A DNA stretch of 25,800 nucleotides from a virus, in IMG/VR virus record IMGVR_UViG_3300025781_000064, positions 1 through 25,800 of that record. One strand, 5' to 3'. Of the stretch, positions 2,818-24,972 are shown piece after piece. Numbering within the stretch: the stretch's first letter is position 1; every line of letters begins with the position of its first letter. A program made the position numbers and the translations under genes. The notes beneath the pieces are model-generated. The model was given only the letters and a program-made list of their open reading frames with translations. It did not search any database and was not told the origin of the DNA.

Positions 2818-3255
2818 ATGGGTTTAGACATGTATGCTTATGTCGGTCGTCCGGGACAGCAAAAAGAATTCTATGAACAAGGAGGTCTTGAATATAATTC
2901 AAAGACAGATGATTGGGTTGTTCCTGCAGGTGGAGTTCAAAAACCACGTCAAATCGCATACTGGCGTAAACATCCCAGTCTACATGGTTGGATGGAACAA
3001 CTTTGGGAACGCAAGATGATTGCCGAAGGTGTAGATAACCCTCACCAATTCAATGGCATTGAACTTGAATTGACATGGGAAGATGTGGATGAACTTGAAC
3101 GAGCAGTGCATCATGGTCAATTACCATACACTAAAGGTTTCTTCTTTGGTGATCCAAAAGATGAATACTATAAAGAAGATGACCTGCAATTTTGTATTGA
3201 TGCTAAGACAGAATTGTTCTTGGGCCTGAAAGTGTTTTACAACAGTAGCTGGTGA
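2818..3255 (+). CDS. Conserved phage protein with MGLDMY N-terminus
   Basis: This 145-aa protein opens MGLDMYAYVG, a start shared by a family of phage and plasmid proteins of unknown function, and has the typical later AYWRKHPSLHGWMEQLW segment. I chose ATG 2818 over an in-frame GTG at 2785 because CTGGAGGAT lies just upstream and the family begins at this methionine. It is rich in Trp and acidic residues and appears soluble. A catalytic role cannot be assigned. It lies in the operon between the small membrane proteins and the SSB-tail protein. Confidence 0.8.
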   Translation: MGLDMYAYVGRPGQQKEFYEQGGLEYNSKTDDWVVPAGGVQKPRQIAYWRKHPSLHGWMEQLWERKMIAEGVDNPHQFNGIELELTWEDVDELERAVHHGQLPYTKGFFFGDPKDEYYKEDDLQFCIDAKTELFLGLKVFYNSSW

Positions 3256-13020: not shown

Positions 13021-13029
13021 AATAAATAC
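13021..13029 (+). promoter_or_regulatory. T4-late-like box AATAAATAC before dnaK
   Basis: AATAAATAC, preceded by G, would place the transcription start near 13034-13035, which is exactly the first base of the hairpin in the dnaK leader. An alternative sigma70-like reading (TTGCAC at 13004, TACATA at 13027) is poor. Confidence 0.45.
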
Positions 13030-13034
13030 ATATC

Positions 13035-13089
13035 GTAGATGCTTAACGGGTCTACAATTAAAAAATCTTGCTTTTTAAAGGAGAAAACT
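13035..13089 (+). promoter_or_regulatory. ROSE-like RNA thermometer in the dnaK leader
   Basis: A first hairpin pairs GTAGA (13035-13039) with TCTAC (13051-13055). A second one closes over the Shine-Dalgarno: C13067-G13083, T13068-A13082, T13069-G13081, G13070 unpaired, C13071-G13080, T13072-A13079, T13073-A13078, with a four-base loop TTTA. UUGCU facing AGGA with a spare G is the defining core of ROSE thermometers. T13066-A13084 can add one more pair. The hsp20 leader has the same hairpin. Confidence 0.65.
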
Positions 13090-14976
13090 ATGAGCAAAGT
13101 CATTGGTATCGACCTTGGTACCACAAATTCATGCGTAGCCATTATTGAGAATGGCAATCCCAAAGTAATTGAAAATAGCGAAGGTGCTAGAACAACACCA
13201 AGTATCGTAGCGTATGCTAACGATGAAATCTTAGTTGGTGCAAGTGCTAAACGCCAAGCAGTTACAAATCCAAAGAACACAATTTACGCAGCCAAGCGAT
13301 TAATCGGACGCAAGTTTGATGAACAGGCTGTACAAAAAGATATTGATTTGATGCCATACTCTATTGTCAAAAATGACAATGGCGATGCATGGGTACAAGT
13401 TAATGACAATAAGCTAGCACCACCACAAATTAGTGCTGAAGTATTGCGCAAAATGAAAAAGACTGCGGAAGACTATTTGGGTACAGAGGTTACACAAGCA
13501 GTTATTACTGTTCCAGCATACTTTAATGACAGTCAGCGTCAGGCAACAAAGGATGCAGGTCGTATCGCAGGACTAGAAGTATTGCGCATTATCAATGAAC
13601 CAACAGCAGCCGCACTTGCGTATGGTGTTGATAAACAAGATAATCGTGATCGCAAAGTTGCAGTATATGACTTGGGTGGCGGTACATTTGATATTTCAAT
13701 TATAGAAATTGCTAACATCGATGGCGATAAACAAATTGAAGTTCTTTCCACTAACGGTGATACATTCTTGGGTGGTGAAGATTTTGACCAACGAATCATG
13801 GATTATTTGGTTGATGAATTCAAAAAGGATTCAGGTATTGATTTAACCAAAGATGTGTTAGCACTACAGCGACTAAAAGAAGCTAGTGAAAAGGCAAAGA
13901 TTGAACTATCTAGTTCAGCACAAACAGATGTTAACTTGCCATATATCACAGCAGATGCTAGTGGTCCTAAACATATGAACATCAAACTATCTCGTGCAAA
14001 ATTAGAAAGTTTGGTTGACGAACTTATCAAGCGCAGTATCGAACCTTGCAAAACTGCAATGGCAGACGCTGGTGTAAGTGCTAGTGATATTGATGAAGTT
14101 ATTCTTGTAGGTGGTATGACACGCATGCCTAAGGTACAAGAAGAAGTTGAAAAATTATTTGGCAAGGCTCCCCGCCGTGATGTTAATCCAGACGAAGCTG
14201 TAGCAGTAGGTGCTGCCGTACAAGGTAGTGTTCTTGCAGGTGACCGTAAGGATGTATTGTTACTTGATGTAACTCCATTAAGTCTAGGTATTGAAACATT
14301 AGGCGGAGTGATGAGTAAGTTGATTCAAAAGAACACTACAATTCCAACTAAACAAAGCCAGACATTTAGCACAGCCGAAGATAATCAATCAGCAGTTACT
14401 ATCAAAGTATTCCAAGGTGAGCGTGAACTAGCTAAATTCAACAAAGTATTAGGTGAGTTCAACTTAGAAGGTATTGTACCCGCACCAAGAGGTATGCCAC
14501 AAATTGAAGTTACTTTTGATATTGATGCAAATGGTATTATGCACATCAGTGCTAAAGACAAAGGCACAGGTAAAGAAAATAAAATTACCATCAAATCAGA
14601 TAGTGGTTTGACTGAGGCAGAAATTCAAAAGATGGTTCAAGAAGCTGAAGACAATGCAGAAGCAGACAAAAAATTACGCACATTGATTGAAGCACGAAAC
14701 CAAGCTGAAGGCACATTACATTCATTCCGTGAAGACTTTAAAAAGTACAGTGATAAAGTTACTACAGAAGAAAAAGAAAAGGCTGAAACAGCAATCAATA
14801 ATGTTGAACAGGCTATCAGCGGCGAAGATACTGAAAATATTCAGGAATCTATCAAACAATTGCACGAAGCTATTGGTCCAATAACCAAAGTAAAGTACGA
14901 AGAGGAGCAAAAATCACAGAATGCTGATTCTGTGGTTGATGCAGAAGTTAAAGAGGCAGAAGAGGCTGCTATTTAA
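13090..14976 (+). CDS. dnaK: DnaK, Hsp70 molecular chaperone
   Basis: This 628-aa protein is a complete bacterial-type Hsp70 (E. coli 638 aa). It binds exposed hydrophobic segments and cycles with ATP to refold proteins in the cytoplasm. The nucleotide-binding motifs are visible: GIDLGTTNS at residues 5-13, [11 protein letters not shown], and [13 protein letters not shown]. The interdomain linker is [11 protein letters not shown], and the C-terminus ends [14 protein letters not shown], similar to the proteobacterial DVVDAEFEEV tail. I start at ATG 13090 (MSKVIGID) because AAAGGAG lies just upstream; an in-frame ATG at 13039 would translate the leader. No dnaJ or grpE is present in the window, so co-chaperones would come from the host or another part of the genome. 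Confidence 0.97.
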
Positions 14977-14984
14977 CTATATTC

Positions 14985-15012
14985 TGAGGGTGCCGCATAG
15001 GGCGGGCCCTCA
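14985..15012 (+). other. Imperfect RNA hairpin between dnaK and hsp20
   Basis: TGAGGG (14985-14990) pairs with CCCTCA (15007-15012), with an inner CCGC/GCGG pairing (14993-14996, 15002-15005) and small bulges. No U-tract follows, so it is not a classic terminator. It can be the upstream hairpin of the thermometer below, or an mRNA processing or stability element between the two cistrons. Confidence 0.6.
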
Positions 15013-15020
15013 ATGTCATA

Positions 15021-15037
15021 CTTGCTTAATTAAGGAG
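15021..15037 (+). promoter_or_regulatory. ROSE-like RNA thermometer over the hsp20 Shine-Dalgarno
   Basis: CTTGCTT (15021-15027) folds on AAGGAG (15032-15037): C15021-G15037, T15022-A15036, T15023-G15035, G15024 bulged, C15025-G15034, T15026-A15033, T15027-A15032, loop AATT. UUGCU against AGGA with an unpaired G is the ROSE signature, which controls small heat-shock genes in many proteobacteria. Heating should open the hairpin and free the ribosome site, 8 bases before the ATG at 15045. Confidence 0.7.
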
Positions 15038-15044
15038 AAATAAA

Positions 15045-15485
15045 ATGACAAGAGAATTAACATTAAGAGCATTGGATATCCCAAGTATCCAGAAATTCGC
15101 AGTTGGTTTTGACAACATGTTTGATGAAATCATGCGAACAACAGCACAAACTACTAACTATCCACCATACAATATTGTAAAGTATTCAGACGATACCTTT
15201 GCTATTGAATTGGCTGTAGCTGGGTTTAAAGATGGTGAGATTTCAATCGTCACCGAGCGCAACCAACTTACAGTTAAGGGTGAGCAAGTTATAGATTTAG
15301 ATAGTCAAGTTGAATATCTATACCATGGTATTTCAGCACGAAATTTCCAACGCACATGGACTTTAGCAGCCTATGTCAAAGTTGTGAATGCTAAGTCTGA
15401 AAATGGAATATTAACAATCAACTTAGAGCGTGAAATTCCTGACGAACAAAAGCCAAAGACTATTGACATTACTTACACTAAATAA
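15045..15485 (+). CDS. Small heat-shock protein (Hsp20/IbpA type)
   Basis: This 146-aa protein is a small heat-shock protein that holds unfolding proteins for DnaK-dependent refolding. The N-terminus has YPPYNI, a hallmark just before the alpha-crystallin domain of class A (IbpA-type) members. The domain runs about 38-132, with the conserved AKSENGILTINL strand (A-x-x-x-x-GIL). The C-terminal tail has the I-x-I motif in KTIDIT, which mediates oligomer assembly. Length fits IbpA (137-142 aa). The ATG is preceded by AAGGAG inside a ROSE-like hairpin, as for E. coli ibpA. It lies 68 bp after dnaK, and a terminator follows. Confidence 0.95.
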   Translation: MTRELTLRALDIPSIQKFAVGFDNMFDEIMRTTAQTTNYPPYNIVKYSDDTFAIELAVAGFKDGEISIVTERNQLTVKGEQVIDLDSQVEYLYHGISARNFQRTWTLAAYVKVVNAKSENGILTINLEREIPDEQKPKTIDITYTK

Positions 15486-18529: not shown

Positions 18530-19108
18530 ATGAGTTTAATTCCAATGGTCATTGAGCAAACCTCTAAAGGTGAGCGTAGTTATGACATTTACAGCCGTTT
18601 ATTAAAAGACCGTGTTATTTTACTTGAAGGTGAAGTACATGACCAAATGGCAAACCTTATCGTTGCCCAATTATTATTCTTAGAGTCAGAGGATGATAGG
18701 GATATATCTATGTATATAAATAGCCCAGGTGGTAGCGTTACTGCAGGTCTTGCAATTTTAGACACTATGAAATTCATCAAACCGGATGTTCAAACAATCG
18801 TTATGGGTCATGCTTGTAGCATGGGTAGCTTGCTTGCTAGTTCAGGAACCAAAGGAAAACGAATCATCTTACCCAGAGCGCGCCATATGATTCATCAGGT
18901 TAGTTCTGGTACTAGAGGAACAGCCATCGATATGAAAATCGCACTAGAAGAAACTTTGCGATTGAATAAAACACTCACTGAAATTTATGTTGAAAATACA
19001 GGAAAATCATATGAACAACTAGAAAAGGACATGTCAAGAGATTTCTACATGGACGCCGAAGAAAGTGTCGCATATGGTCTTGCTGACAAAATTTTAACTT
19101 CCCGCTAA
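18530..19108 (+). CDS. clpP: ClpP, serine protease subunit
   Basis: This 192-aa protein is ClpP, the proteolytic chamber that degrades substrates unfolded by ClpX or ClpA in the cytoplasm. The triad is Ser97 (GHACSMGS), His122 (ARHMIHQ) and Asp171 ([10 protein letters not shown]). The N-terminal loop [20 protein letters not shown] is near-identical to the mature E. coli protein. There is no propeptide: the start is at [10 protein letters not shown], so it would be made already mature apart from Met removal. The hydrophobic pockets that accept the ClpX IGF loop cannot be assessed by eye, but the phage encodes both partners. The 3' end overlaps a homing endonuclease by 15 bases. Confidence 0.97.
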
Positions 19109-19693
19109 TTTACAATTGGCCCCGTGAAATCTACTAAGAATATGCGGGGCTATTTCTTTACCACAGTAATTACATACCACCCTAGGCTTTGGTTTTCTTA
19201 ATTTAGTTCGCTGTGTTTCTGACATTGGTATGCCTTTGTTAGCAGGAGTGCAGCCTTTTCGGTTACCAATGAAGCCCTGATGCAATGCTCGTTCTCTTGC
19301 GTTATGTCGCTGTTGATCGTTCCATTTATTGCCAAAGTTAGGATTATTGATACCTGTTATATCATGTTCTTCGTGCCATTTCGTTTTAGCAGTTGCAATT
19401 GACATTCTAGCAGAGTCTGTCCAGATTTTCCCTGATGTCCCGTCTCCACCGTCAGTCATATTTCTGAGTATTCCGGTACCTAAATCTTTTCTGCCATACT
19501 GTGCTATCAGCTTTTCCTCTAAATTAAATGCTTGTTGTTCGGTAAGATTTGTTTCTATTATTTGAATGCGATTTTTATCGACTGGCTTTGGTACATTACG
19601 TTGATTTTTATAAGCTCTACTACCTGAGCCCTTTCCAATGTAATACGGAGTTCCGTCTTCACGCAAGTATGCGTAAACATAATAAATAGTCAT
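19094..19693 (-). CDS. GIY-YIG homing endonuclease, copy 1
   Basis: This 199-aa protein is a free-standing GIY-YIG endonuclease. The catalytic module is at the N-terminus: YYVYAYLRE (2-10), [12 protein letters not shown] (17-28) and the later EEKLIAQYG with Glu58-59. Two NUMOD3-like repeats follow (NNPNFGNKW and downstream), then a C-terminal zinc finger [21 protein letters not shown]. Such enzymes cut a related allele and are copied into it. The gene is antisense and lies between clpP and the terminator at 19803. The ATG is preceded by AAAGGAGC. Its leader is repeated at 24961 before the second homing gene. Confidence 0.92.
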
Positions 19694-24046: not shown

Positions 24047-24376
24047 ATGGAAGCAGTAGTAGAAACAACAGTTTGGAGTGATAGCAATAATGCCAATCAT
24101 ACATACTTGCTTGACGGAAGCAAAATGGTTGCGTATATCAAGGTTGGTTCTACTACTCCTGTCTATTTCAAAAACCCGATCACAATCGACAAGCGTGGTC
24201 GTAAGTTTGTGTCAGTAAAGCCAAATCCCTTTAAGAAAATTAAGGAAAAGAGTACAATCATCAAAGTGTCAGGTAGTAAAGGTGCAGTATATTCTATCGA
24301 CACCGAAGATAAAACATGCACATGCGCGGGATTTCAGTTTAGGTCGACCTGTAAACACTTACAGTTGCTGCCGTGA
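24047..24376 (+). CDS. SWIM zinc-finger protein
   Basis: This 109-aa protein ends with a SWIM finger: C-T-C-AGFQFRST-C-K-H (CxC-x8-CxH), a zinc module that binds nucleic acid or proteins. The front part is beta-rich, with NANHTYLLDGSKMVAYIKVG and a basic NPFKKIKEK stretch. The start is uncertain: ATG 24047 is chosen, but an in-frame TTG at 24035 overlapping the preceding stop would add four residues and give tighter coupling. The last 43 bases overlap the homing endonuclease on the other strand, and the protein ends only five residues after the CKH, so its C-terminus may have been trimmed by the insertion. Confidence 0.78.
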   Translation: MEAVVETTVWSDSNNANHTYLLDGSKMVAYIKVGSTTPVYFKNPITIDKRGRKFVSVKPNPFKKIKEKSTIIKVSGSKGAVYSIDTEDKTCTCAGFQFRSTCKHLQLLP

Positions 24377-24972
24377 TACCTTGCAAGGGGTGAAGGAGCA
24401 AAGAATTTTTTGCAATGCGGACATTCTGATTTTGTCCTATTTTTTGCCCTAAATGATTGAAGTTCTTTTGCTGAATTAGTTTGTTTCTTGCCGTACATAG
24501 GGTTAGCCATTCCTGAATTATCTTTTCCTCTAGTAGACATTGATCGTGATTTCTTTAGCTGGTCAGACTTTTCTTTACCGTACAAGTCCTCATATGATTT
24601 GCCCTTAAATCTCATAATTGCACGGGACGCTTGCGCTATCTTTTCAGAGTCTGAATGAGTTTTTCCGTACATACCATTAATTTCACCAAAACATCCTCCG
24701 CCGTCTCCGTTTTCTTCTTTTAAGTTAGCCCATTTTTTGCTATCAACTACGGACCATAATCTACTATAAAATAGGCCCCATGCTCTTATTGCTGATTTAG
24801 AAATACAACGGTGTAGTATTTTAGTATCATATGCATATCCGTGTTTTTGTAAGTGAAGATTCCATCTTGTTCCTGATCCTGTATATTTGTGTGGATCAAG
24901 TTTGGAAGTATAACCCAAATAGTTTAGGCCAGTGATTCTATGTGTCTTTACATAGAGGTAATAAATAGTCAT
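24334..24972 (-). CDS. GIY-YIG homing endonuclease, copy 2
   Basis: This 212-aa protein has the GIY-YIG module at the N-terminus (YYLYVKTHRITGLNYLGYTS), NUMOD3-like repeats (GMYGKTHSD, NPMYGKKQTN) and the C-terminal zinc finger CPHCKKFFAPSPLARYHGSNC, which aligns with that of the first copy. The two proteins share start MTIYY and finger but diverge in the middle, so they are related elements with different targets. The gene is antisense; its 3' end runs into the SWIM gene. The ATG is preceded by AAAAGGAGC. The leader repeats that of the gene at 19693. Confidence 0.92.
   Translation of the reverse strand: MTIYYLYVKTHRITGLNYLGYTSKLDPHKYTGSGTRWNLHLQKHGYAYDTKILHRCISKSAIRAWGLFYSRLWSVVDSKKWANLKEENGDGGGCFGEINGMYGKTHSDSEKIAQASRAIMRFKGKSYEDLYGKEKSDQLKKSRSMSTRGKDNSGMANPMYGKKQTNSAKELQSFRAKNRTKSECPHCKKFFAPSPLARYHGSNCKCLQVDLN

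Follow-up and report, generated by a model that had tools for sequence, protein, structure and literature searches.

A two-hairpin ROSE-type leader on the hsp20 and dnaK genes of a T4-like phage belongs to a family widespread on phage chaperone genes

The window analysed here, that is the whole stretch of positions 1 to 25,800 of the IMG/VR virus record IMGVR_UViG_3300025781_000064, is a 25.8 kb virus-record fragment of a T4-like phage, an assignment based on the relatives of rIIA and rIIB and the ATP-dependent DNA ligase that it encodes. It carries a set of chaperone and protease genes, namely clpX, dnaK, hsp20, clpS and clpP. The dnaK stop (14976) and the hsp20 start codon (ATG, 15045) are separated by 68 bases, and in this gap lies the hsp20 leader, which consists of two hairpins, the second pairing with the Shine-Dalgarno (SD) sequence in the manner of ROSE RNA thermometers. 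A second copy of the leader precedes dnaK. The genes and the features of both leaders are as follows.

13021 to 13028, plus strand: AATAAATA, a late-promoter motif of T4-like type, preceding hairpin I of dnaK by 6 bases
13035 to 13055, plus strand: hairpin I of the dnaK leader, of the type GUAGAU-(G13041)-C...GGUCUAC
13067 to 13083, plus strand: hairpin II of the dnaK leader, CUUGCUU (13067-13073) with AAGGAG (13078-13083), bulged G13070
13090 to 14976, plus strand: dnaK (Hsp70), Pfam HSP70 E 1.8e-262
14985 to 15012, plus strand: hairpin I of the hsp20 leader, 11 pairs, predicted to stay folded
15015 to 15049, plus strand: GUCAU (15015-15019), able to pair with AUGAC (15045-15049) and to enclose the start codon
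15021 to 15037, plus strand: hairpin II of the hsp20 leader (ROSE core), CUUGCUU (15021-15027) paired with AAGGAG (15032-15037)
15045 to 15485, plus strand: hsp20 (IbpA-type small heat-shock protein), Pfam HSP20 E 3.7e-17

The original prediction, made from the letters of the window, had placed a ROSE-like thermometer on a phage hsp20 gene, and the Pfam match bears out the identity of that gene. The encoded protein is 38% identical to E. coli IbpA and retains the residues equivalent to Tyr34 and Arg93 of the latter. The start of dnaK is likely at 13090 and not at the mechanical open reading frame start at 13039; phage relatives with up to 86% identity begin there. The longest mechanical dnaK frame is misleading, as its positions 13039-13089 read through the dnaK leader.

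Hairpin I of the hsp20 leader (UGAGGGU-(G14992)-CCGC / GCGG-G-CCCUCA) is closed by the pair U14985-A15012, and its bulged G14992 adjoins a wobble pair of U14991 with G. In hairpin II, C15021, U15022 and U15023 are followed by the bulged G15024, by C15025, U15026 and U15027 and by the loop AAUU, with a U-G wobble below the bulge. The predicted folding of CTTGCTT onto AAGGAG with a bulged G was correct in sequence and coordinates, the wobble below the bulge being that of the ROSE core, and the hairpin predicted upstream is present and stable. The strand opposite the SD reads CUUGCUU and not four U, as a fourU thermometer would have it. The minimum free energy of 14977-15060 calculated with RNAfold, −23.1 kcal/mol (z −2.5 compared with shuffles), comes mostly from hairpin I. 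In this fold only part of hairpin II is formed, inside the GUCAU/AUGAC helix; this helix takes in the start codon as well and is found among closer relatives only.

The match goes beyond chance. CUUGCUU, AAGGAG and a start codon occur together at just two sites of the window, the hsp20 and dnaK leaders, and no leader of this type was found upstream of clpX, clpS or clpP when the window was scanned for the core with a start codon. With a covariance model built from chaperone leaders of relatives (R1), exactly the same two leaders were found confidently in the window; the dnaK leader, which is outside the training set of R1, scored 45.7 bits (E 2.7e-10), and the next best match had an E value of 0.026. 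R1 matches the hsp20 leaders of the Methylophilales phage Melnitz and of 11 more isolated phages of cyanobacteria, Pelagibacter, Sinorhizobium and Pseudomonas. It also finds three chromosomal bacterial hsp20 leaders, one phage groES leader, a Pseudomonas-type ibpA leader in record L258 (E 7e-6) and, weakly, the E. coli ibpB leader (23.9 bits). Record L258 (OQ572409.1, Pseudomonas phage Y7) is unverified, and the surroundings of its hsp20/ibpA gene resemble bacterial Pseudomonas DNA.

No Rfam family matches anywhere in the window at gathering scores. A permissive search of 14900-15120 (221 bases, 4,227 families) gave ROSE_3 (RF02523) as the best family with 33.7 bits (E 1.3e-5); due to the cut-off of 43 bits, the hsp20 leader is not filed as a ROSE_3 member. 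The match is full length and covers all 69 model positions, aligning the 5' hairpin with its bulged G and then C-U-U-(G)-C-U paired with the SD. When ROSE_3 alone was run against the 25.8 kb record the E value was 3.6e-7, and none of 14 control genomes gave a match. The model also matches the leaders of Melnitz and of IMG/VR relatives. Rfam ROSE and ROSE_2, the two models named in the original prediction, did not match 14900-15120 at E values up to 10. Another candidate family, freshwater-2 RNA, was rejected (22.5 bits, E 0.14, anti-SD absent). The structural marks of the ROSE class are found in the window, namely a conserved bulged G (G15024, G13070), a conserved stable 5' hairpin and a position in the 5' untranslated region (UTR) of a small heat-shock gene. 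By covariance model, the leader is related to the Pseudomonas-type ibpA leader, a class that has been tested as thermometer.

The ROSE-type leader family is widespread on phage chaperone genes and occurs in hundreds of phage sequences. When IMG/VR was scanned with the window Hsp20, 14 loci were obtained; in all of them CU(U/C)GCUU or its variant UUUGCUU precedes AGGAG, and most have an obvious 5' hairpin. Scans with DnaK and with Hsp20 of phage Melnitz added 160 loci, and the Hsp20 of S-PM2 as query returned only 2. Among protein-fetched leaders (scan loci, isolates and the window, without selection on the leader), the core lies at most 22 bases from GGAG in 116/141 cases for hsp20 and 54/68 for dnaK, compared with 2/172 other SD-led frames of the same contigs (Fisher p 1e-57 and 7e-38, respectively). 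Both positive control frames come from one suspected Pseudomonas contaminant record, and the hsp20 leaders that lack the core mostly have near-variants (CUUACUU, CUUUGCUU). If an A bulge is allowed and pattern-found loci are added, the counts become 222/232 for hsp20, 70/70 for dnaK and 15/309 for other frames. The pattern used on IMG/VR DNA, CTTGCTTN{0,8}AAAGGAGA, matched many contigs; among the matches listed, 104 of the 122 with a start codon lie before hsp20, while dnaK and groES follow some of the remaining ones. The same pattern, run on bacterial and archaeal genomes, gave 117 matches, 36 of them with a start codon and 3 before hsp20 (L150, L208 and L231), these three being flanked by ordinary chromosomal genes. 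Some bacteria, two of them titled Rickettsiales and SAR86, thus have the same hsp20 leader as the phages.

The two-part leader was also recognized by eye in Melnitz, P-SSM4, P-SSM2, S-CAM1, S-B64, S-PM2, S-CRM01, S-SSM5, Syn1, ACG-2014f and HTVC115P (Pelagibacter) as well as in the jumbo phages Phosso (Sinorhizobium) and MIJ3 (Pseudomonas); that of S-B68 is degenerate. Phage groES leaders with the same two hairpins were seen at L076:10714-10779 (G type at the bulge) and at L335:about 3060-3123 (A type). A complete leader with a late-promoter motif precedes a gene for a short phasin-like protein (L061:4140-4206). In phage P-SSM2, a strong manA RNA (L261:800-997, 181.6 bits) lies between regA and purL, near hsp20.

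Conservation is seen for both hairpins and takes the form of compensatory change in hairpin I. Alignment A2 (MAFFT without structure) comprises the 34 leaders whose Hsp20 is most similar to that of the window; in it 94.8% of cells pair, some rows coming from the pattern scan that fixes the anti-SD letters. Two-sided changes are found at 9/11 pairs of hairpin I, and the covariation score is 0.518 compared with 0.192 when shuffled (0/500), a count that is not a probability because the sequences are related. The score falls to 0.12 or less when the helix is slid by 1-3 columns, and RNAalifold, unaided, returned nearly the same helices. In an alignment-free test of 184 dereplicated leaders, the outer positions 1-5 pair in 66-83% compared with 41-55% in shuffles. 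The closing pair of hairpin II is T-A in 200 and A-T in 6 leaders, compared with the mismatches T-T in 5 and A-A in 1 (p 2.5e-8). Compensatory changes are thus abundant in the relatives. Of the conditions that the original prediction gave as refuting the thermometer, two do not hold: a covariance-model match exists, if below the curated cut-off, and so do these changes.

Many of these leaders stand next to a phage promoter motif. NATAAATA is found within 20 bases 5' of hairpin I in 47 of the 103 leaders with a clear hairpin I, where shuffles give an expectation of 1.9, and it nearly always lies 0-6 bases before the stem. In the geometry of T4-like late promoters, the transcript would begin at or beside hairpin I. 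No such motif precedes the window hsp20, which is probably expressed from a joint dnaK-hsp20 message.

We consider it likely that a two-hairpin ROSE-type element controls the translation of the phage hsp20 and, through its second copy, that of dnaK. In the cold state, AAGGAG would be held by the anti-SD CUUGCUU in the weak hairpin II, which would be strained by the bulged G and the U-G pair. Upon warming, hairpin II would open and ribosomes would load, while hairpin I would stay folded and serve as a 5' cap or folding guide. Transcripts from the late promoter of dnaK would have hairpin I at their 5' end. We infer a temperature response in the phage host with the opening of hairpin II as the switch. 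Of the mechanisms considered, SD melting has the best support, the basis for a heat response being homology to the experimentally tested Pseudomonas ibpA thermometers. Short Pseudomonas ROSE-like elements with the same two-hairpin plan confer 3.3 to 8.3-fold induction from 25 to 42 °C (PMC3669281).

Nearest-neighbour folding of the window hsp20 leader predicts a joint SD opening of 0.019 at 25 °C and of 0.12 at 42 °C, and an in-silico control modelled on a published stabilising mutation keeps the SD closed at all temperatures. Across 217 chaperone leaders the median predicted SD opening is 0.048 at 20 °C and 0.19 at 42 °C. The energy model omits non-standard pairs known in ROSE cores. Three observations weigh against the proposed control: the ROSE_3 score stays under its cut-off; two-sided change in hairpin II is restricted, because its 3' strand is the SD itself; and the predicted opening of the 217 leaders is not lower, and its change not larger, than in a set of 309 other SD-led frames that includes some spurious genes. 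Since ordinary SD-led frames score as strongly, we rejected folding energy as evidence of thermosensing. The case for heat sensing is thus one of homology and not of energies, which do not single out chaperone leaders. The ROSE-type interpretation itself is supported, and the element is broader than stated there, where the dnaK copy and the wide occurrence had been missed.

Among 217 dereplicated leaders the bulge is G in about 185 and A in about 22, some loci having been fetched by a G-demanding pattern; automatic calls were corrected by eye for L282 (false start), L288 and L310 (wrong match). The bulges of the dnaK and hsp20 leaders of one contig are G/G in 50 and A/A in 17 cases, with one clear mixed contig once misreads are removed, and those of hairpins I and II are G/G in 101, A/A in 13 and mixed in 1. 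The A bulge marks one branch of phages with dnaK and hsp20, where it is found in hairpin II, and usually in hairpin I too, of both genes' leaders. Few events lie behind it, because the tree needs one or two origins for the A-type lineages; several sites nonetheless changed together. Many A-bulge leaders have an extra hairpin of the GGGCAUAGUGCCC type between hairpins I and II (L298, L301, L304, L309, L312, L335, L340, L345 and L347).

One reading of the shared bulge letter is a common ligand of the leaders, with the phage Hsp20 as candidate. In E. coli, IbpA acts via its thermometer 5' UTR as a repressor of its own synthesis, for which Arg93 and an aromatic residue at position 34 are required (PMC10474464). 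The phage Hsp20s have Arg (212/239) or Lys (27/239) at the position of Arg93, where E. coli IbpB has Gln, and Tyr or Phe at that of residue 34 in 238/239. The leader could therefore be mainly protein-sensed, with Hsp20 binding and repressing it in the way of IbpA until aggregates titrate Hsp20 away, and hsp20 and dnaK would rise together upon protein damage, whether or not temperature is sensed as well. We regard this as possible, though short of probable. The agreement of the bulge letter between genes and between hairpins fits it, but is explained for the most part by the shared descent of the A-type lineages, and the Arg-to-Lys variation shows no association with the bulge letter (p 0.7). 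Moreover, such repression does not compete with heat sensing, as E. coli ibpA does both; it is compatible with SD melting as a second layer. Only tentatively, and with more doubt than belief, we hypothesize a phage-run translational chaperone regulon in which ROSE-type leaders on hsp20, dnaK and sometimes groES would be both heat-sensing and Hsp20-bound, one RNA code including the shared G/A bulge coordinating the set independently of host regulators.

Alternatively, the hairpin could be a temperature-independent brake that sets a low and constant translation of late chaperone genes. The failure of folding energies to set chaperone leaders apart is in line with such a brake, but a brake would need neither the near-invariant CU(U/C)GCUU nor the bulge in the layout of a tested heat sensor, and it would not be largely restricted to hsp20, dnaK and groES; we consider it unlikely. 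That the GC-rich hairpin I in the dnaK-hsp20 gap is an intergenic terminator or processing hairpin with a coincidental CUUGCUU match is extremely improbable and was rejected as already contradicted, since no U run follows it and the same hairpin pair stands elsewhere directly after promoter motifs, before dnaK and hsp20, with the enrichment of NATAAATA given above.

If the leaders function like their bacterial counterparts, a large share of aquatic phages would have a chaperone supply that depends directly on temperature at translation, independently of host sigma factors, and warming could be linked in a testable way to burst size and to the heat tolerance of phages. The family also extends ROSE elements to viruses, to dnaK and to groES, and its hundreds of natural variants (G/A bulge, loop length, stem strength) are at hand for studying how the temperature of ROSE elements is set.

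Elsewhere in the window, two homing-endonuclease-like genes on the minus strand (19094-19693 and 24334-24972) have a near-identical leader of their own (UCCCAACUACUCUAA.GCU..AAAGGAGCAAUCAGCAUG), as if it moved together with the gene.

Cyanophage small heat-shock proteins have been under study for more than 10 years. The leader is mentioned neither in phage record annotations nor in two papers on these proteins (PMC5028025, PMC3827213), and the papers give no explanation of how the proteins are controlled. In our search, confined to an open-access library, we found ROSE elements described neither from phages nor for dnaK. The search likewise yielded nothing on cyanophage RNA thermometers or on RF02523 in phages, although ROSE_3 matches in phages may have been noticed earlier. 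The phage thermometers found there are lambda cIII (PMC4166951) and the fourU element of SPbeta blyA (PMC10586365), the paper on the latter, from 2023, counting just one described earlier; these are encoded in phage genomes as well, but have other motifs and genes. ROSE-G (PMC12857270) resembles the phage leaders in its bulged-G motif opposite the SD and in its occurrence on genes other than hsp20, but its motif is CUGCU with bulged Gs opposing each other, the genes are those of ABC transporters in Pseudomonadota, and phages are unmentioned. The ROSE_2-type leaders of E. coli ibpA and ibpB have the SD-pairing core and the gene type in common with the phage leaders and differ by a larger multi-hairpin layout; the window gave no ROSE_2 match. 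IbpA self-repression (PMC10474464), shown for bacterial IbpA only, concerns a like gene and leader type, and its key residues are kept in the phage protein. Compared with the short ROSE-like thermometer of Pseudomonas ibpA (PMC3669281), the phage leaders often begin at a phage late promoter and not at a sigma-32 promoter, occur also on dnaK and groES, have a hairpin II of only 6 pairs and stay below the ROSE_3 cut-off. Both share the two hairpins before a small heat-shock gene; the 5' hairpin of close phage relatives has GAUGCCGA..UCGGGUC as in Pseudomonas ibpA, and the Pseudomonas-type leader in turn resembles the Rfam ROSE_3 consensus.
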